Assembly: GCF_000017185.1 (NCBI RefSeq)
Contig: NC_009635.1
Coordinates: forward strand, 498,563 to 562,562
DNA from: Methanococcus aeolicus Nankai-3
Lineage (GTDB): Archaea; AGJL01; Methanococci; Methanococcales; Methanococcaceae
Direction of reading: 5' to 3'
DNA length: 64,000 nt
The translations under genes and the position numbers were made by a program. Below the pieces are notes generated by a model that did no database searches, was not told where the DNA came from, and saw only the letters and a program-made list of their open reading frames with translations. Shown piece after piece: positions 6,676 through 53,875 of the stretch (positions within the stretch are counted from its first letter, which is position 1; every line of letters starts with the position of its first letter).

Positions 6676-6946
6676 GTGTTCGAAAACTCAATTCCGAAGC
6701 CAAATCCCAAAAGGAATTTGTTAAGCTAATCATAGATTAGTAGCTAAACCAAAGGTTGGGCAAATAAAATTTGCCAAACCATAGGACATTTAAATCAACA
6801 GGCATTAGGCAATCAGAGATTGCCTAACCCATAGCGAACAATGTTAGCGAAAGGCCATAAAAACTCAAAGGGTTTTCATTCAACCATAATATAATACTAT
6901 AAATATATGAATTTATTACTTCAAAAATTCTCGAACATACCATATT
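6676..6946. repeat. Train of short hairpins upstream of nhaP
   Basis: About 270 bp made of successive short palindromes, most with 3-nt loops: GCTAATC-ATA-GATTAG (6725), GGCAAAT-AAA-ATTTGCC (6759-6775), AGGCAATC-AGA-GATTGCCT (6807-6825), AAAACTC-AAA-GGGTTTT (near 6860) and a weaker one at 6701. Spacers often read AAACCA or AACCATAG. The ends, TGTTCGAAAA and TTCTCGAACA, are themselves inverted. No reading frame. It differs from CRISPR because the palindromes differ and the spacers are short. Confidence 0.6.
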
Positions 6947-9757: not shown

Positions 9758-9884
9758 TATAGTTAATCTTCGGTCGTTTTCACTAAACTGTCTCAAAATC
9801 GCAAAGCGATTTTTACGACCTCAAAATTCCAGAGGAATTTTTACGATAGGGCAAATAAGAGACAGTTATTGAAGATTAATTATA
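9758..9884. repeat. MITE-like element (copy 2) between wecC and wecB
   Basis: A 127-bp element with ends TATAGTTAATCTTC and GAAGATTAATTATA. Inside are two tandem hairpins of the 3-nt-loop type, AAAATCGC-AAA-GCGATTTT and AAAATTCC-AGA-GGAATTTT, joined by TACGACCTC. It starts 46 bp after wecC and ends about 21 bp before wecB, so it fills the gap and may affect the wecB promoter. Confidence 0.8.
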
Positions 9885-9905: not shown

Positions 9906-11078
9906 ATGAAAATAGCAATAATATTAGGAACAAGGCCAGAAATTATTAAATTATCTTCAATTATTAGGGAGCTCCAAAATTTTTCAAAGGAAAATTTTTA
10001 CAGTTGTAAAACTTGTGAAGCAAATCTAAAACACAATCAATCAAACACCCATAAGGATAATAAAAACATTGAATATTTTATAATACATACAAATCAACAT
10101 TATTCTAAAAATATGGACGAAATATTTTTTAAAGAATTAAATCTGCCAACTCCGAAATACAATTTAAATGTTGGTTCTGGGACACATGGCGAACAAACCG
10201 CAAAAATGATTGACGGTATTGAAAAAATATTAATATCGGAAAATCCCGATGTAGTAATTGTTCAAGGGGATACAAACACAGTTCTTGCAGGAGCTCTATC
10301 AGCTTCAAAATTACATATAAAGGTAGCACATGTTGAAGCAGGATTGCGAAGTTATGACCGAAATATGCCGGAAGAAACAAACAGGGTTTTAACAGACCAT
10401 ATTAGTAACTACCTATTTGCACCAACTGAAATAGCAAAACATAATTTATTGAAAGAGGGAATTAATAAAAATGTGTTTGTCGTCGGAAATACTATTGTAG
10501 ATGCCACAATTCAAAATATAGAAATTGCCGAAAATATATATAAATATAATAATATGTCCATAAAAACCAATATAAATGAAGATTATTTTTTATTAACACT
10601 CCATAGGGCAGAAAATACGGACAATAAAGAAAGATTAACAAATATTGTTAATGCCATTATCAAAGCAACGGAGCAATATAATAAAAAAATCATATTTCCA
10701 ATGCACCCCAGAACGGAGAAAAAATTAAAAGAATATAATTTATTTGAAAATTTACAAAAAAACAGTAAAATAGAAATTATAGAACCAGTGGGCTATTTAG
10801 AATTTCTACTTCTTGAAAAAAATGCAAAATTAATATTAACGGATAGTGGGGGAGTTCAAGAAGAGGCCTGTATTTTGGGAGCTCCATGTATAACATTGAG
10901 AGATAATACCGAAAGACCAGAAACTATATATATTGGAAGTAATATATTGGTAAATGCCGATATAAATAAAATTTTAGATGGTATCGGCGTAATGGCCAAT
11001 AAAAAAATAAATGGGAATAATCCTTTTGGAGATGGAAATAGTGGCAAAGCCATCGTTAAAATATTGCTGGAAAATTAA
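9906..11078 (+). CDS. wecB: UDP-N-acetylglucosamine 2-epimerase (non-hydrolysing)
   Basis: A 390-residue epimerase converting UDP-GlcNAc to UDP-ManNAc, substrate of the neighbouring WecC. Motifs: ILGTRPEIIKL at the N-terminus, QGDTNTVLAGALSA, HVEAGLRSYDRNMPEE, LTLHRAENT and LTDSGGVQEEA. It is about 20-25 residues longer than usual because of a segment near residues 27-52 containing CKTCEAN, placed before the normal IEYFIIHTNQHYS strand. The extra DNA (about 9984-10070) includes a palindrome and looks like an in-frame insertion. The catalytic core is unaffected. Confidence 0.93.
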   Translation: MKIAIILGTRPEIIKLSSIIRELQNFSKENFYSCKTCEANLKHNQSNTHKDNKNIEYFIIHTNQHYSKNMDEIFFKELNLPTPKYNLNVGSGTHGEQTAKMIDGIEKILISENPDVVIVQGDTNTVLAGALSASKLHIKVAHVEAGLRSYDRNMPEETNRVLTDHISNYLFAPTEIAKHNLLKEGINKNVFVVGNTIVDATIQNIEIAENIYKYNNMSIKTNINEDYFLLTLHRAENTDNKERLTNIVNAIIKATEQYNKKIIFPMHPRTEKKLKEYNLFENLQKNSKIEIIEPVGYLEFLLLEKNAKLILTDSGGVQEEACILGAPCITLRDNTERPETIYIGSNILVNADINKILDGIGVMANKKINGNNPFGDGNSGKAIVKILLEN

Positions 11079-11225: not shown

Positions 11226-11567
11226 ATGTTTGGATTTGGAAGAAAATTAGGATTTGGAAGAATGGGAAGATGTGGCGGTATGGGTAGAGGATTTAGGCAT
11301 CAAGCACAAGATAATACCGTAACAACAACGGTGGCCAACACAGAAATGCCATTAAATGAAAAATATGAATATGTTGGAGCTTGTAGATGTGGTTCAGGGG
11401 CTCATGCTTACTATAAAGCTATAAATACCGGTGAAATATTGCATGCATCAGCAGTAGCTTATGGGGAAAATACCACGCCAAAAGATACAGAATCAAAAAA
11501 TACAGTAATATCAGATAGATTAAAACGGCTCGAAGAGGAAATAAAAAAATTAAAAGAAGATTTATAG
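11226..11567 (+). CDS. Small Gly/Cys-rich protein of unknown function
   Basis: A 113-residue protein I do not recognise. The first 30 residues are rich in Gly, Arg, Phe and Met (FGFGRKLGFGRMGRCGGMGRGFRH). The middle has EYVGACRCGSGAHAYYKAINTGEILHASAVAYGE, and the end is a charged, probably coiled helix (RLKRLEEEIKKLKEDL). Cys at CACRCG could bind metal. It sits with a zinc-ribbon gene and an Mrp ATPase, a grouping seen with Fe-S or dinitrogenase-iron-molybdenum-cofactor-like proteins, but that is inference. The start follows AAAGGTGATTAA. Its TAG stop lies in the end of a MITE-like element. Confidence 0.7.
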   Translation: MFGFGRKLGFGRMGRCGGMGRGFRHQAQDNTVTTTVANTEMPLNEKYEYVGACRCGSGAHAYYKAINTGEILHASAVAYGENTTPKDTESKNTVISDRLKRLEEEIKKLKEDL

Positions 11568-11806
11568 TAAGTTCAATAACTGTCCTTTATCTGCCCCAAA
11601 TTAAAATAAATTTCTTTATTTTTAGTAATATGATAGAGAGATTTTAGCTTTAATAGCATCTATAAATTTTTCTCTGAAAAATTTATACGACCTTAAAAAT
11701 TCCTCCGGAATTTTGGGTCGTAAAAACTCCTTCGGAGTTTTGAGATCGTAAAAATCGCTTTGCGATTTTGAGACAGTTTAGCGAAAACGACCGAAGATTG
11801 ACTATA
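11563..11806. repeat. MITE-like element (copy 3) with internal hairpin train
   Basis: A 244-bp element with ends TATAGTAAGTTCAATAACTG and GACCGAAGATTGACTATA. It contains four hairpins in a row: an 11-bp stem at 11661-11687, then AAAATTCC-TCC-GGAATTTT (11696), AAAACTCC-TTC-GGAGTTTT (11723) and AAAATCGC-TTT-GCGATTTT (11751). The last three repeat every 27-28 bp with different stems and a shared spacer like GAGATCGTA. The left end supplies the stop codon of the preceding gene. Confidence 0.8.
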
Positions 11807-12019: not shown

Positions 12020-12395
12020 TAATATATTCAATATTTGATTTTTTCTTTTTATTTTTTTTATGTCGTATGTTTTAAAACTCTTTATGATAATAAATAGAAT
12101 TTCAAAATCTCTTCGAGATTTTTACAATTGTGAAAATTGCCGTGCAATTTTGAGATGTTGCAAATGGATATTATTACAGGTTTTCGGGTATGTATCTTAT
12201 GTTAACCTTTTTGATTAATAATTTATTTAATTATATATTTAGATTAATGTATAAAATTAAATTTATATATGGTTTGTTATTATATTATGTTAGAGTATTA
12301 TATTTTTAATATATAAAATAAAATATAATTTATTATTAACAAACTTTCAAACCAGTCTCTCATACAATAATGAAATATATAAAATAGGTGGTTAA
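12020..12395. other. Intergenic region with two family hairpins
   Basis: After a T-rich tract right behind the zinc-ribbon gene, 12108-12160 holds two hairpins, AAAATCTC-TTC-GAGATTTT and AAAATTGC-CGT-GCAATTTT, about 30 bp apart. They belong to the same train family as at 11.7 kb. The rest (12200-12395) is very A+T rich and should contain the mrp promoter. Confidence 0.55.
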
Positions 12396-14105: not shown

Positions 14106-16259
14106 ATGGTTAAAACAGATATAAAATTAGATTTTGATGAAGAAGAATTTTTAAACAAATATGAAAATAAGATAAAGCAATACATAAAAAATATTCTCTC
14201 CTCTAATTCTATAAATAATAACATTTTTGAATTTGATATTGAAGATTTTTTAAGTAGTTATCCGGAAATTTGTGAAATTAATGATATAATAATAGAACAA
14301 CCAACACAGATCGAAGGAACAATTTTTTATATTTTTAAAGATACATATATGGAGCTCTATGGAGATGATGAAAAAACTTCAAAAGAATTGGAAAAATACC
14401 AAATAGCATTTAAAAAACCGCTGGGTTGCGATAAAAAAATAGATGAAATAAACTCCGCAGATATAAATAAATTGGTAGATTTTGAAGGAAATATAATAAA
14501 AGCAGCAAAAGTATGTGCATTATTGAAAAAGGCATGTTTTGTATGTAGAAATTGTGGAAATATATCTTATAAAACTATTCATGATTATTTTACATTTCCA
14601 AAGAGATTTTGTGATAATAAAAATTGTGGAGCAGAAATGTCATTGGACTTAAACAGCTCTTCCTATATAAATATACAGGAATTGGAAATTCAGCAACCCA
14701 TAGACATTATGAAAAATCCAGATGACCCACCACGAAGTATAAGGGCATTTCTTGAAAACTCCGACGGAATATACTCTGGAAGGGTGGATGTAGTTGGAAC
14801 AGTGATGAAAAAATTTACAAAACCAAATATGCCAGTTTTTGAGATATATGTAAAGAGCAACCATATAAAATTAAATGAAAGTTTTCAAAAAATAGAGGTA
14901 AGAGATATAATATCCAACACCGAATTAATGGAAACTATGAATGAATTGGGTAAAAAGAAAAATATTGTTGAAATATTATCTCACTATCTCATACCACAAA
15001 TAAAAGGGTATGAAATGGTTAAAAAATCAATATTTTTACAGCAAATAAAAGGATGCACAAAATTTTTACCAGATGGTTCTCAATTGAGAAAGGATAGCCA
15101 TATACTTCTTATAACAGACCCAGGAATTGGAAAATCTACAATGTTAAGAAAAATAGCCAGACTATTTCCACAAAACGCTTATGCTTCGGTTACCACTGCA
15201 ACGGGCGGGGGACTTACGGCTAATGTGGTGAGAGAAAGCACGGAAATAGGAGATGGCTGGGTTGTAAAGCCAGGGGTATTTGTTAGGGCTAATGAGGGAA
15301 CGGCATGTATTGATGAGCTTACCGTTGAAAGAAATATTATGAAATATATTCTTGAAGCTATGGAATCCCAAACCATACATATTAATAAAGGAGGGATAAA
15401 TGTAAAATTACCTACAAAATGTGCTGTTCTTGCGGCATGTAATCCAAAACGGGGAAGATTTGATTCAAATTTGGGCGTAATTGAACAAATAAATGTCCCA
15501 TCCCCTCTTCTTAGTAGATTTGATTTAATATTTCCATTGAAGGATATACCCGATAAAAAAAGAGATGAAGAAATAGCCGAACATATTTTAAATACCCATA
15601 TTGAAACAGCTACCAAAGATTATAAATTATTAAGCTCGGTAGAAATAGACGGCATTACTGTTAATGAAGAGTTAATAAAAAATTATATAATATATTCTCG
15701 GACTTGTGCTTATTTTGAGGAAAACCATTCTTTATTTAGAAGTGATACCGTAGATGAGAAAAAATTAAAAAATCCACATCTCACAAAATCGGCAAAAAAA
15801 TTAATAAAAAATTATTATATAGATATGCGAAAATTGGGGGAAGGGGACAATCCAATCCCCGTAACCGCCAGACAGCTGGAGGCGGCAATAAGAATATCGG
15901 AAATGCATGCCAAAGCAAGACTATCAAAAAAAGTCGAGGAAATTGATGCAAAAGTTGCAATTGGTATTATTGAGGAATGTTTAAACCAAGTTGCATATGA
16001 CCCCGAGACTGGAAAATATGATATTGGTAAAGCCATGGGACAGCTACCAAAATCAAAAATGGATAAAATGGATAAAATAGTTGATATAATCAGGGAGCTC
16101 CAAGCATTATCAGATAACAAATTAGCTTATGAGCAGGATATAACTGAAAAAGCTTTTGAGTTTGGAATATCTGAAAAAGAAGTTGAGGATGCACTGGAAA
16201 AATTGAAAAAAAGTGCAGATATTTATTCTCCAAAGTTCGGATACTACAAAGTCTCGTAG
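14106..16259 (+). CDS. mcm: MCM replicative helicase (paralog)
   Basis: A protein of about 717 residues. I choose ATG 14106 (MVKTDIKLDFDEEEF), preceded by GTGATATC; the longer frame from 14061 would start inside a MITE. Domains in order: N-terminal domain with a Cys4 zinc motif (CRNCG with CDNKNCG), AAA+ domain with Walker A TDPGIGKST, Walker B-like TACIDELTVE, sensor-1 LAACNPKRGRFD and arginine-finger SPLLSRFDLIFPL, then a C-terminal winged helix. It unwinds DNA at replication forks. Walker B departs from the usual CIDEFDKM, and Walker A has T for the usual G, as in divergent MCMs; Methanococcales often carry several copies, some in mobile elements. The stop codon sits in a hairpin loop. Confidence 0.88.
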   Translation: MVKTDIKLDFDEEEFLNKYENKIKQYIKNILSSNSINNNIFEFDIEDFLSSYPEICEINDIIIEQPTQIEGTIFYIFKDTYMELYGDDEKTSKELEKYQIAFKKPLGCDKKIDEINSADINKLVDFEGNIIKAAKVCALLKKACFVCRNCGNISYKTIHDYFTFPKRFCDNKNCGAEMSLDLNSSSYINIQELEIQQPIDIMKNPDDPPRSIRAFLENSDGIYSGRVDVVGTVMKKFTKPNMPVFEIYVKSNHIKLNESFQKIEVRDIISNTELMETMNELGKKKNIVEILSHYLIPQIKGYEMVKKSIFLQQIKGCTKFLPDGSQLRKDSHILLITDPGIGKSTMLRKIARLFPQNAYASVTTATGGGLTANVVRESTEIGDGWVVKPGVFVRANEGTACIDELTVERNIMKYILEAMESQTIHINKGGINVKLPTKCAVLAACNPKRGRFDSNLGVIEQINVPSPLLSRFDLIFPLKDIPDKKRDEEIAEHILNTHIETATKDYKLLSSVEIDGITVNEELIKNYIIYSRTCAYFEENHSLFRSDTVDEKKLKNPHLTKSAKKLIKNYYIDMRKLGEGDNPIPVTARQLEAAIRISEMHAKARLSKKVEEIDAKVAIGIIEECLNQVAYDPETGKYDIGKAMGQLPKSKMDKMDKIVDIIRELQALSDNKLAYEQDITEKAFEFGISEKEVEDALEKLKKSADIYSPKFGYYKVS

Positions 16260-16416
16260 AGACTTTGTAGGTCAATAACTCTGAAAGAGTTATTGCAGAC
16301 TATAAAGTCTCATAAAGAGGTTATAGGTCAATAACTCTGAAAGAGTTATTGCAGACTATAAAGTCTCATAAAGAGGTTATAGGTCAATAACTCTGAAAGA
16401 GTTATTGTAGATTATA
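16244..16416. repeat. Tandem hairpin array at the mcm/pstK junction
   Basis: A perfect hairpin CTACAAAGTCTC-GTA-GAGACTTTGTAG (16244-16270) covers the end of mcm, with the TAG stop beginning in its loop. It is followed by three copies of CAATAACTCT-GAA-AGAGTTATTG (16273, 16329, 16385) alternating with a weaker palindrome (TATAAAGTC ... GAGGTTATA). The period is 56 bp, i.e. two hairpins of 28 bp each. It separates the convergent mcm and pstK genes and could terminate both. Confidence 0.8.
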
Positions 16417-17179
16417 AGGTTTCGTAATTATTAAGTATTTTTTTAAATTCTTTTTCAACAATATTTATATTATAATTATCTAAATCAATTTTATTTTTAA
16501 TAGATTTAATATAATTTTTTCGGAGCTCCGAGATTTTTTTAATATTTTCTTTATCAAGTTTATGAGTTTTTATATATTCTCCCATAATTTGCCGAGTAAT
16601 TTTATCAATATTGTATATTATGTTTTCTTTTTCCGTAATTTCTTTTTTTTCCTTTTTAAATGGTTTATTATCGTTATGTTTTATTTCTAATATTTTTTCA
16701 ACTATTTTGTTGTAATTTATCTCTTTTGTGGTATCTATTGTTATATCGGGCTTATCCCAACTATATTTAGTGCCAGGCTCATCAAATTTATTAAACATAT
16801 CAATAATTACTTCATTTGGTATTTTAGCTCCTCTTTGGATATTTCTTTTTAAAATGGTATCTAATGGAGCTTTTAAATAAATCATTATATGATTTTTATT
16901 ATTTTCTTTGGCAATATTTATTAAATCCCTTCTTTTTGAATTATAATAATTTGTATCATCAACTATAACAGTATAATCCTTTAAAGCATTTTTTATTAAA
17001 TAATCTGTGGAATTTTTTATAAATTCCTCCTGTTCATTACTCCATTGCGGGAATTGCTCTCTAATTAAATCAGTCCCTAATATAATATTATCTATTCCTT
17101 TTTCCCATAATTTTTTAGATAATTTTTTTGAAAATGTGGATTTCCCCGTGCCGGGAAGTCCCGTAAGTATTATTAGCAC
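16412..17179 (-). CDS. pstK: O-phosphoseryl-tRNA(Sec) kinase
   Basis: A 255-residue P-loop kinase that phosphorylates Ser-tRNA(Sec) before SepSecS converts it to Sec-tRNA. Walker A is GLPGTGKST (residues 7-15). The DTNYYNSKRRDLINIAKENN and LKRNIQRGAKIPNEVI segments match archaeal PSTK, and the C-terminal helical domain for tRNA binding is present. Its presence shows the organism makes selenocysteine, as several Methanococcales do; I saw no selenoprotein gene in this window. It is 12 bp downstream of tyw1 in the same direction, so the two are probably co-transcribed. Confidence 0.88.
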   Translation of the reverse strand: MLIILTGLPGTGKSTFSKKLSKKLWEKGIDNIILGTDLIREQFPQWSNEQEEFIKNSTDYLIKNALKDYTVIVDDTNYYNSKRRDLINIAKENNKNHIMIYLKAPLDTILKRNIQRGAKIPNEVIIDMFNKFDEPGTKYSWDKPDITIDTTKEINYNKIVEKILEIKHNDNKPFKKEKKEITEKENIIYNIDKITRQIMGEYIKTHKLDKENIKKISELRKNYIKSIKNKIDLDNYNINIVEKEFKKILNNYETL

Positions 17180-19615: not shown

Positions 19616-19727
19616 ATAGTTAATCTTCGGTCTTTTTCAGTTAAATCCATAATAAAGCTAAATTAGTAGCCCCACTTAATATGATAACAGAGGACAGATA
19701 AAGGACATTTCTTGAAGATTAACTATA
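19616..19727. repeat. MITE-like element (copy 5) upstream of pgk
   Basis: A 112-bp element with ends ATAGTTAATCTTCGGTC and CTTGAAGATTAACTATA. The inner sequence CGGTCTTTTTCA matches copies at 9.8 and 22.3 kb, the middle does not. It lies between sepF and pgk, which diverge, and may add to or separate their promoters. Confidence 0.78.
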
Positions 19728-26810: not shown

Positions 26811-27179
26811 AGTATCACCCAATTTATCTATAATATATAATTATTTTTGGAGTATATATATGTTGGCTATTTATGGTTATGTATTTTATCTACACTACTA
26901 TAAACAACCATCTCATATATAAAGTTTTCGATTTAAATGAGGTTGTCGAAAAATATTAATTATGAATATATAATATGATGGGCGAAACTAATTAAACGAA
27001 ATCCTTACGGATTTCGTCTATCTTTGGAAGATTGGAAACTAAAGGCAGATTATCTAATGGTGAAAGATTTATAGTTAATATGTACATCGAAACAAACAAG
27101 TGAGTTTCGAGCTATAAAATCCGTAAGAATTTTTTTCTTATTTTTTAGTTTCGACTATTCTATTTTATTTTTTTAATCT
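26811..27179. other. Intergenic region with repeat hairpins
   Basis: About 370 bp. It holds a hairpin ACGAAATCC-TTAC-GGATTTCGT at 26996-27017, and repeated pieces such as GTTTCGA/TCGAAAC at both sides of 26.92-27.16 kb. This appears to be another member of the palindrome-rich repeat class. The DUF169 promoter lies at its left end. Confidence 0.45.
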
Positions 27180-51744: not shown

Positions 51745-52419
51745 TGCCTTAGTTATTTAATATTAAATCTGCTATCACCTGAATGAAATGAAGGTGAGCT
51801 ATAAAACTCGAAGAGTTTTATTCAATTTTTGGTGTAATATAAACTTCTACGAAAGAAACTTCTACGAAAGCGACTATAACGATTAATATTATTGAAATTA
51901 AAGCTAATTTTAAGAATTCTTTTGTATCTTCTTCCGTTAGTGGTTTTTCTTTTCGCTTGCTACGCAAGCGAGCAACGAAAACCAAAGATTTTCGTCTAAT
52001 TTATCCATTAAATATTGGATAACTTCATACGGTATTTTAAAACCTGCCACTGCTGATATAAGCATTGCTGGAATTTCAAATATGCCATGTGGAAGGATTA
52101 AACCAGCAATAAGTTTTAACGGTTCATTAGTTTGAAAAGTAGAACCAATTAAAACGCCAACATTAAAACCATTAAATATTAAGTTTATAAAAGTAGATAA
52201 ACCGAAGGTTATAGAACCTGCCAACATTAAAAAGATAACTTTTAAATTATTTATTAAAATTGTAGGAAATTTGAATTTTATATTTAACTTTTGATTTATT
52301 TCTTCTCCTTTGTAGTTTTTTGAAAAGTCGTTTATGAATAAGTCGTTTATGAATATAATGACTGAGATGAAACCTATTGAGAAGATTAGGATTGTTAGTA
52401 TCGATGGTAGTTTTTTCAT
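51745..52419 (-). pseudogene. SpoIIM/DUF95 gene, copy D, broken by palindromic insertions
   Basis: The first 140 or so residues are intact (SILTILIFSIGFISVIIFI, then ILPHGIFEIPAMLISAVAGFKIPYEVIQYLMDKLDE), but the frame then runs into inserted DNA and stops at 51937. Compared with copies A-C, about 45 bp including CGCTTGC-TAC-GCAAGCG and a second hairpin (near 51952-51994) has entered just before the KEKPITEED region. A second insert with ATAAAACTC-GAA-GAGTTTTAT lies at about 51779-51822, and a 15-bp stretch (AAACTTCTACGAAAG) is duplicated. The decayed C-terminal part is still readable in other frames. No peptide gene precedes this copy. Confidence 0.8.
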
Positions 52420-52667: not shown

Positions 52668-53292
52668 TAGTATGGGTCAAAATATATATAACCTATACTA
52701 AATATAATATTATAAAAAAGACGATATTATGAAGGCTGAGGAAGTGGTAAATTGAACAAAAACCTAACGGTTTTTGTAGCTCTTCGCTCCTTCGGAAAGA
52801 TAGGATATAACAGTGAAGGAATGTTTAAAGGCTTTAAATTACATTTAGCAGTAGATAAGTTAGGAATACCATTAAGAATAGAATTTACCACAGGAAATAC
52901 TCATGATTATAAAGTAGCTGATAAATTATTAGTATGCACTAAGAAATCATGTGCAGATGCAGGCTATGATAAAAGATTTAAAAAAGTGATGGAATTATAC
53001 GAAAACGAACGGATAACTGCCCACAATTCAAGAAGATTAGTGGGGAAGAAAAATAAAAAGAAGCTTCCCAAATTGATATCTAAGAATTAGGGTTAAAATA
53101 GAACATACCAATTCCATATTAAAAAACAGATTTATGAATAAGTATTGGATTAATATCAAAGGTTATATTCTTAAAAAAGTATTCTGTCTCTGTGCAGTAG
53201 TTTCTGCACAGGTTTTAGCATTATATAACCTCATTATGTGGTTATCCTTATATGAAAGTCTTAGAGGTTAGAGTGTAATATGATCCATACTA
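52668..53292 (+). mobile_element. Degenerate IS element, DDE transposase (IS5/IS4-like)
   Basis: Imperfect inverted ends TAGTATGGGTCA (52668) and TGATCCATACTA (53281). The transposase reads from about 52729 but is broken: a stop soon after MKAEEVVN, then an insertion of a hairpin (ACAAAAACC-TAAC-GGTTTTTGT at 52757-52778). The best frame is 52752-53090, containing GMFKGFKLHLAVDKLGIPLRIEFTTGNTHDYKVADKLL and DAGYDKRFKKVMEL, typical of DDE transposases; the C-terminal part continues in other frames to about 53270. It is too short for an active element. It has landed just upstream of cassette D and may have removed its peptide gene. Confidence 0.75.
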
Positions 53293-53327: not shown

Positions 53328-53875
53328 TATGTTTAAAAAAATTATAATTTTAATAGGAATTTTTAGTTTATTTGGGAATGGTTTATGGTGAAATCTGGAA
53401 TGATATAAAATATCCTGAAAATAATTCCACCACCAAAGATACTAATGTGATATTTAATAAGATACTAATGTGATATTTAATAAGATACTAATGTGATATT
53501 TAATTTTCTAGAAGATTTTGAGAAAATAAATAAAATAAAAATTGAAATTCTTGCATATTATGTGGATAATACAAATAATAATATATCTTATGATAATGTT
53601 TATGTAGATAATGTAGAATTGTGGAAATTAATAAGTAAGGATAATGGAAATTCAACAACAATATTTAAGATTAATTACCACAAAGCAGAAAATATTTTGA
53701 ATGATAGATAATTAACCTAACAGTTGATAAAAATCCAACAAATGATAAAATTCAAATTAAATATATTAACTTAACAGTGGATTATACCTGACTCAAACAT
53801 CAAAACACCAATCCCAACTCCTGCAATAATTATCAGCATTTTAGCAATATCTATTATAATACTAAAAGATAGATA
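53328..53875 (+). pseudogene. Decayed secreted protein gene with 23-bp tandem repeats
   Basis: Starts with a signal-like stretch (FKKIIILIGIFSLFG), then frameshifts into GEIWNDIKYPENNSTTKDTN. Three copies of a 23-bp repeat beginning GATACTAATGTG (53438, 53461, 53484) shift the frame again. The next frame (53493-53711) reads FLEDFEKINKIKIEILAYYVDN and on to KINYHKAENILN. The end, up to 53875, encodes a Pro-rich stretch and a terminal hydrophobic helix (TPIPTPAIIISILAISIIIILKD), as in surface-anchored proteins. Not functional as it stands. Confidence 0.6.

Follow-up and report, generated by a model that had tools for sequence, protein, structure and literature searches.

Introduction

The REPIN/REP system with its RAYT (Y1) transposase comprises short, mostly extragenic, clustered palindromes of high copy number, with predicted folding as single-stranded DNA and compensatory changes between the arms (PMC3116915). 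In a REPIN, a variable spacer separates two conserved REP sequences, one at each end. The mitochondrial double-hairpin and repetitive hairpin-forming elements of Allomyces and sponges are tiny hairpins, often paired or clustered and patchy among close relatives. In the passage of PMC2800124 that cites the Allomyces elements, flanking duplication is not reported for them; in the sponge elements, stems are conserved and loops vary. Rickettsia palindromic elements (RPEs) are palindromic repeats of ~150 bp, in limited families, that insert in frame in protein genes (PMC10969869), and prokaryotic MITEs are small, multicopy, non-coding and dispersed, with imperfect terminal inverted repeats. Template-switch (quasipalindrome) mutation, described for single loci, predicts perfect arms, simultaneous change of both arms and loop inversion (PMC8794818, PMC8604942). 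Template switching homogenises inverted repeats and inverts the spacer between the arms, with a change from TTC to GAA among the cases in yeast genes (PMC8604942); it is also able to generate hairpins and may preserve them (PMC8794818). Tandem repeats are over-represented in Methanococcus aeolicus and M. voltae, and the hairpins treated here are not described in those parts of PMC4060949 that concern these repeats.

Here we analyse hairpin trains in a stretch of 64,000 nucleotides from M. aeolicus Nankai-3 (NC_009635.1, positions 498,563 to 562,562; hereafter the window). Their unit is a module with a fixed, asymmetric outer frame, a variable, nearly always paired inner stem and a usually C-G-closed 3-nt loop. 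The module class resembles REPINs, double-hairpin elements and RPEs, and lacks a defining feature of REPINs (RAYT) and one of RPEs (size and conservation). As with REPINs, the palindromes are high-copy and mainly extragenic; unlike REPINs, they have short frames of many kinds, arms of 7-13 bp and loops of 3 nt. Neither this genome nor G012, a relative of the same family and another genus, yielded an intact Y1 transposase. Whereas double-hairpin elements are mitochondrial, the modules lie in an archaeal chromosome and are dominated by C-G-closed 3-nt loops, and in contrast to the sponge elements their stems vary yet stay paired. In-frame insertion in a gene, as in RPEs, occurs as a 35-residue train in an intein, and a second insertion, in a SpoIIM-like gene, shifts the frame. 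Instead of conserved ~150-bp families, these insertions are a train of 105 bp, in which all four hairpins differ, and a 46-bp pair, and the modules at large have spacings of 21-36 bp and variable stems. Unlike ordinary prokaryotic MITEs, the MITE-like element described below has exchangeable hairpin cargo in three fixed slots, and an autonomous partner was not found. Finally, template switching would involve here a whole dispersed repeat class. We propose, with a probability of roughly 0.5, that the trains are dispersed palindromic DNA modules, partly MITE-borne, which are kept paired by template switching from arm to arm.

Results

Hairpin trains in the window and the genome

A preliminary description of the window had reported three hairpins at 11.7 kb, and their sequences are exactly as given there; a fourth, which had been missed, lies upstream of them. 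The other trains that it claimed were located at 9795-9841, 12104-12151 and 16244-16407. A further train at 6.70-6.88 kb exists but is looser and irregular, and the hairpins reported at 27.0, 51.8, 51.95 and 52.76 kb are all present, those at 27.0 and 52.76 kb with 4-nt instead of 3-nt loops. Among the genes of the window, those for MCM and a KTI12-like protein accord with an archaeon, and that for 4-HFC-P synthase accords with a methanogen. The hairpins and modules are as follows.

6759-6827, + strand: irregular hairpin pair in the gap of divergent genes
9795-9813, + strand: hairpin in a second MITE-like copy, AAAATCGC-AAA-GCGATTTT
9823-9841, + strand: hairpin in the same copy, AAAATTCC-AGA-GGAATTTT
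11664-11684, + strand: train hairpin 1, AAATTTTTC-TCT-GAAAAATTT
11696-11714, + strand: train hairpin 2, AAAATTCC-TCC-GGAATTTT
11723-11741, + strand: train hairpin 3, AAAACTCC-TTC-GGAGTTTT
11751-11769, + strand: train hairpin 4, AAAATCGC-TTT-GCGATTTT
12104-12122, + strand: hairpin AAAATCTC-TTC-GAGATTTT, not within any recognised terminal repeats
12133-12151, + strand: hairpin AAAATTGC-CGT-GCAATTTT, 29 bp from the preceding one
16243-16417, + strand: about three (3.1) copies of a 56-bp unit of two hairpins, overlapping the MCM stop codon, between the convergent MCM and KTI12-like genes
26996-27017, + strand: single hairpin with a 4-nt loop, ACGAAATCC-TTAC-GGATTTCGT
51797-51825 (G000:550359-550387 in genome coordinates), - strand: TTGA/AGCT module, in the frame shared by 15 genomes of the order, TTGA-ATAAAACTC-TTC-GAGTTTTAT-AGCT
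51951-51999 (approximate edges), - strand: frameshifting double hairpin of ~46 bp within the SpoIIM-like gene, ACGAAAATCtttGgTTTTCGT-TGC-TCGCTTGCgtaGCAAGCGA, not in the relative G011
52752-52781 (G000:551314-551343), + strand: TTGA/AGCT module with a 4-nt loop, TTGA-ACAAAAACC-TAAC-GGTTTTTGT-AGCT, adjoining a transposase-like remnant

Perfect stems of 8 bp or more occur in 23 hairpins of the window, where 3.3 were expected (maximum 7 in 20 order-2 Markov simulations); in six hairpins the stem reaches 10 bp or more, against 0.4 expected from such simulations. The genome was covered by samples and pattern searches. A 444-kb sample, made up of the window and nineteen evenly spaced 20-kb stretches, held 85 hairpins with 3-nt loops where 7.6 were expected; for longer loops, the observed and expected numbers were 16 and 9.0 (4 nt), 8 and 7.6 (5 nt), 5 and 4.6 (6 nt), 4 and 7.0 (7 nt), and 6 and 6.6 (8 nt). 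The excess is essentially limited to 3-nt loops, and loops of 5-8 nt are at background. In the comparison with randomised sequence that the preliminary description had proposed, hairpin copies are thus well over the simulated background both in the window and in the 444-kb sample, and the loops are, as it had stated, mostly 3 nt.

Of the 109 sample hairpins, 72 have C as the 5' closing base, forming a C-G pair, and so do 42 of the 74 distinct cores; the share in simulations is 18%. The C-closed loops are mainly GAA, AAA, AGA, ATA, GTA, GGA or their complements (GNA/ANA-type). DNA triloops of the d(GNA) type with a CG closing pair are stable (PMC5815330), and by analogy the C-G-closed loops here appear to resemble them.

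The period of 28 bp had been described as constant, but hairpin spacings peak at 21-23 as well as 27-28 bp, and 33 and 36 bp also occur; the 28-bp period is valid for one module class only. Hairpin density is 0.06 per kb in genes vs 0.8-1.3 per kb in intergenic DNA. In the ~495 kb first examined, a set that over-represents the MITE-like family because its copies were fetched deliberately, 123 of 209 perfect 3-nt-loop hairpins lay inside MITE-like elements and the others elsewhere. Outside this family, modules are seen singly, within repeats of other kinds and in genes.

The 11.7-kb train is carried by a MITE-like element

The 11.7-kb train had been treated as a free-standing entity; its hairpins are instead the cargo of a MITE-like family of ~90 copies. 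A genome search with 11660-11790 gave 53 matches, of which eight are nearly full-length with 94-100% identity, and the aligned copies reveal a longer element around the train. Four copies were delimited in the window.

2308-2421 (G000:500870), + strand: hairpin-free copy, ~114 bp
9758-9884 (G000:508321-508441), - strand: second copy, with slot A directly joined to the right end
11563-11806, + strand: element with the 11.7-kb train, ~244 bp; left end TATAGtaaGTTCAATAACTGTCC, right end AAACGACCGAAGATTGACTATA, four-hairpin train in slot C
19616-19722 (G000:518178-518284), - strand: hairpin-free copy, 107 bp

Genome-wide, the left end occurs 91 times and the right end 81 times, with no hit for the reversed-pattern controls, and forty end pairs delimit elements that range from 53 bp (no hairpins) to 334 bp (eight hairpins). 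Elements without hairpins are ~117 bp long and bear imperfect terminal inverted repeats, TATAGTYAATCTTC ... GAAGATTRACTATA. Hairpins occupy three slots: slot A, after TCCTAT, and slot C, the home of the 11.7-kb train, before GGTTTAGTGAAAAAGACC, take 28-bp modules, and slot B, after TTATTAA, takes 22-bp modules. The number and order of the modules in these slots vary among copies; in slot B, subsets and order differ between copies and loop orientation is constant. The family shares with MITEs terminal inverted repeats, imperfect ones, and many dispersed, short copies that do not code for protein. With regard to target duplication, the flanks are frequently TA/TAT but blend into the TATAG/CTATA ends. 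An autonomous partner was sought among end pairs at distances of 1.6-3.6 kb, and the two such stretches that were read contained host genes and no transposase. Among 25 relatives, the family gave no match except a 30-bp hit in G012.

Inside the 11.7-kb element, the differing stems come from a small set of modules that are used repeatedly and do not form a continuum; the broad variety of paired stems is seen in further frames of this class. The 28-bp frame TCTC-AAAA-N4-N3-N4-TTTT-TACGA has three main stems, and pairing is nearly complete where the frame matches. Its broken stems are mostly arm-swapped chimeras of two module types, CTCC/GGAA and TTCC/GGAG.

The ORF at 11226-11567 takes its stop codon from the TATAG end of the element (11563-11567), and the insertion at 11563 may therefore have truncated or re-ended the protein. 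At G000:364290-364667, three MITE-like copies lie head to tail with a spacing of ~123 bp. An element at L178:177-436 carries both 22-bp and 28-bp trains, and its neighbours resemble, by eye, a cobalt-transport operon.

The two arms of the stems change together

Frame-only pattern searches, in which the outer frame was fixed and 5-19 inner bases were left free, detected the frame TTGA-AYRAA...TTYRT-AGCT in 15 of 36 genomes of Methanococcales, with one hit for the reversed control. Its copy number ranges from 0 to 39 per related genome, with the most (39) in G012. Perfect varied stems were present in 44 of 59 distinct sequences; when the 3' arms were redealt among copies of equal length, perfect stems averaged 9.9 and never exceeded 21 in 5000 trials. 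The TCGA frame (TCGA-AGYRAA...TTYRCT) gave 19 perfect stems out of 25 vs 8.2 after shuffling; these counts take the sequences as independent, which is not entirely true. The assertion that both arms change together is thus borne out in both frames.

In the TTGA/AGCT frame, the outer variable pair is C-G in 35 copies, T-A in 20 and a broken C-A in 4, and the next one is A-T in 41, G-C in 15 and broken in 3. The core has an odd length (19, 21, 23 or 25) in 44 of 59 copies, which indicates that the arms tend to lengthen or shorten together. Single mismatches comprise T-G (3) and G-T (1) vs C-A (5) and A-C (1), few events in which no strand stands out. Within identical frames and arms, we counted eight pairs of reverse-complement loops vs 4.2 expected, a number reached in 380 of 20000 shuffles; this is a modest signal (~2%) that pools pattern-search and other entries and depends on the class definition. 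The excess fits template switching and is suggestive, not decisive.

Modules inside genes

The intein of a Hel308-type helicase contains four different hairpins in frame, a segment of 105 bp or 35 residues that is not in the corresponding inteins of G016, G020 and G022. The 3.65-kb block of helicase and intein is 99.1% identical between G000:94937-98734 and G012:C1 ~1455900-1458600. Such identity across genera points to recent transfer that included the train, and the train was therefore probably passed horizontally between this genome and G012.

The SpoIIM-like gene (51937-52419) contains a 46-bp double hairpin, which is absent from the otherwise closely similar G011. It shifts the frame, so that the predicted protein has 160 residues vs open frames of ~180-200 in relatives. 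About four paralogues, this gene among them, form a cluster in this genome, with more in G011, and the frameshift is in one copy. The hairpin pair, at 550.5 kb of the genome and missing from G011, resembles another at 29.9 kb. Two in-frame hairpins also lie in a biotin-ligase-like gene, within a stretch that differs from relative to relative; the insert in the biotin-ligase gene of G012 was examined for hairpins and contains none.

Hairpins in relatives

In 340 kb of G012, 63 hairpins with 3-nt loops were found vs 7.8 expected, other loop sizes being near background, and C is the closing base in 48 of the 63. Spacings are 24-29 bp in G012, as in the intein train, and its trains add further frames, such as CTCG-ACRAAA...TTTYGT-GAGT followed by C-AGYRAA...TTYRCT-TCGAC. 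Most other sampled relatives are at background, and G022 has a small excess, mainly of G-rich stems. The 3-nt-loop hairpins of G022, a more distant relative, form a different, recurring set, several of them with G-rich stems (TTGGGACTGAAAGTCCCAA, ATAGGAGGTTTCCTCCTAT), at L108:1653-1831 and 10271-10331.

Discussion

The preliminary description left it undecided whether pairing is selected or is made by the copying mechanism. These are the right two options, and the evidence leans to copying. We propose that MITE transposition would spread the modules that it carries, that recombination or slippage between modules sharing a frame would alter their number and order, and that DNA synthesis would occasionally jump from arm to arm (template switching, or "quasipalindrome correction"), keeping new stems paired. 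Such jumps would homogenise the arms, change both lengths jointly and sometimes invert the loop, and a compact, C-G-closed hairpin would favour the fold-back that they require. The stems of the MITE modules are nearly invariant, which suggests that copying there is old or rare. As a counterpoint, strong selection for pairing would leave few broken stems too. Moreover, 3-nt loops are depleted among instantaneous compensatory changes in rRNA (PMC8794818), opposite to the preference for 3-nt loops here.

Paired stems of differing sequence are normally taken as proof of a selected RNA structure. Since the pattern here extends to MITE cargo, divergent gaps and genes, template switching may be a simpler source. 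If this is true, the modules offer, in nature, hundreds of parallel copies in which one could count how often hairpins arise, arms are homogenised and loops invert, and they are a warning for covariation-based RNA discovery. Archaea would also gain a mobile or semi-mobile repeat class, and the intein insert shows that hairpin trains can turn into protein sequence. More tentatively, the modules could constitute a dispersed element class in Methanococcales that is defined by its shape instead of its sequence, namely a short frame around a compact, C-G-closed hairpin of 3-nt loop. Its stems might be continually rewritten by arm-to-arm copying, and it would enter intergenic DNA, MITEs and genes via a putative mobilisation system.

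Among the alternatives to template switching, the one that survives best, although we consider it rather doubtful, is that an enzyme (a transposase or another) recognises the shape of the hairpin and not its sequence, so that mobility itself would select paired arms, as in REPINs moved by RAYT. The clean insertions in the intein and the SpoIIM-like gene, the spread of copy number from 0 to 39 in related genomes and the conservation of asymmetric frames all agree with such mobility, and compensatory changes are known from REPINs (PMC3116915). However, no candidate enzyme was found, no target duplication was established at the single-hairpin insertions, and a Y1/RAYT transposase was rejected as the driver: this genome has a broken one, and none was found in G012, the genome with the most copies. 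A Y1 (IS200/IS605-type) transposase domain, split between two frames, lies at G000:319142-319464.

Selection on RNA appears unlikely. On this view the trains would be transcribed and would stabilise mRNAs, mark processing sites, terminate transcription or give small RNAs, with stems maintained by compensatory substitutions. The covariation itself is what this explanation predicts, and hairpins of 8-9 bp have predicted RNA stem energies of -3 to -7 kcal/mol at 37 C; the DNA folding parameters assign the same energy to every triloop of a given closing pair. Hairpins are also somewhat denser in convergent gaps (1.32 per kb) than in divergent (0.96) or tandem ones (0.82), on small counts. But divergent and tandem gaps are about equally dense and modules lie in coding sequence too, single mismatches are of both kinds with no transcribed strand evident, and stem lengths change symmetrically. 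The similar density in all gap types, the modules in genes and the lack of a clear mismatch strand make RNA selection less favoured than template switching. No Rfam family corresponds to the trains, an Rfam scan of the window returning one tRNA only. Archaeal terminators are usually T-tracts, not hairpins, which also speaks against a terminator function. Intrinsic terminators were rejected as a candidate class because the hairpins are not confined to 3' ends, with divergent and tandem densities alike and modules within genes.

It is very improbable that the hairpins are ordinary internal repeats of a MITE, shaped by transposition and slippage only, with stems that are old independent sequences and no process that maintains pairing. 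Most hairpins at 11.7 and 9.8 kb do belong to a handful of module types that were copied along with the MITE. That account leaves unexplained the dozens of distinct paired arms in one frame over 15 genomes, the near-exclusive 3-nt loops and the hairpins outside MITEs, and it is already weakened by the frame-only pattern test. A CRISPR-like array, suggested by regularly spaced palindromic units, can be dismissed, as the preliminary description had done, because the frame is repeated and the palindrome itself varies, with conserved linkers of ~8 bp in place of constant repeats and unique spacers of ~30-40 bp.

Two minor observations concern the right part of the window. The ORF fragment at 52752-53090, by eye a transposase remnant, directly adjoins the TTGA/AGCT module at 52752-52781, and the hairpin sequence of this module is found again at G000:898807-898836. 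At 53436-53504, three perfect copies of a 23-bp tandem repeat, AAGATACTAATGTGATATTTAAT, are present.
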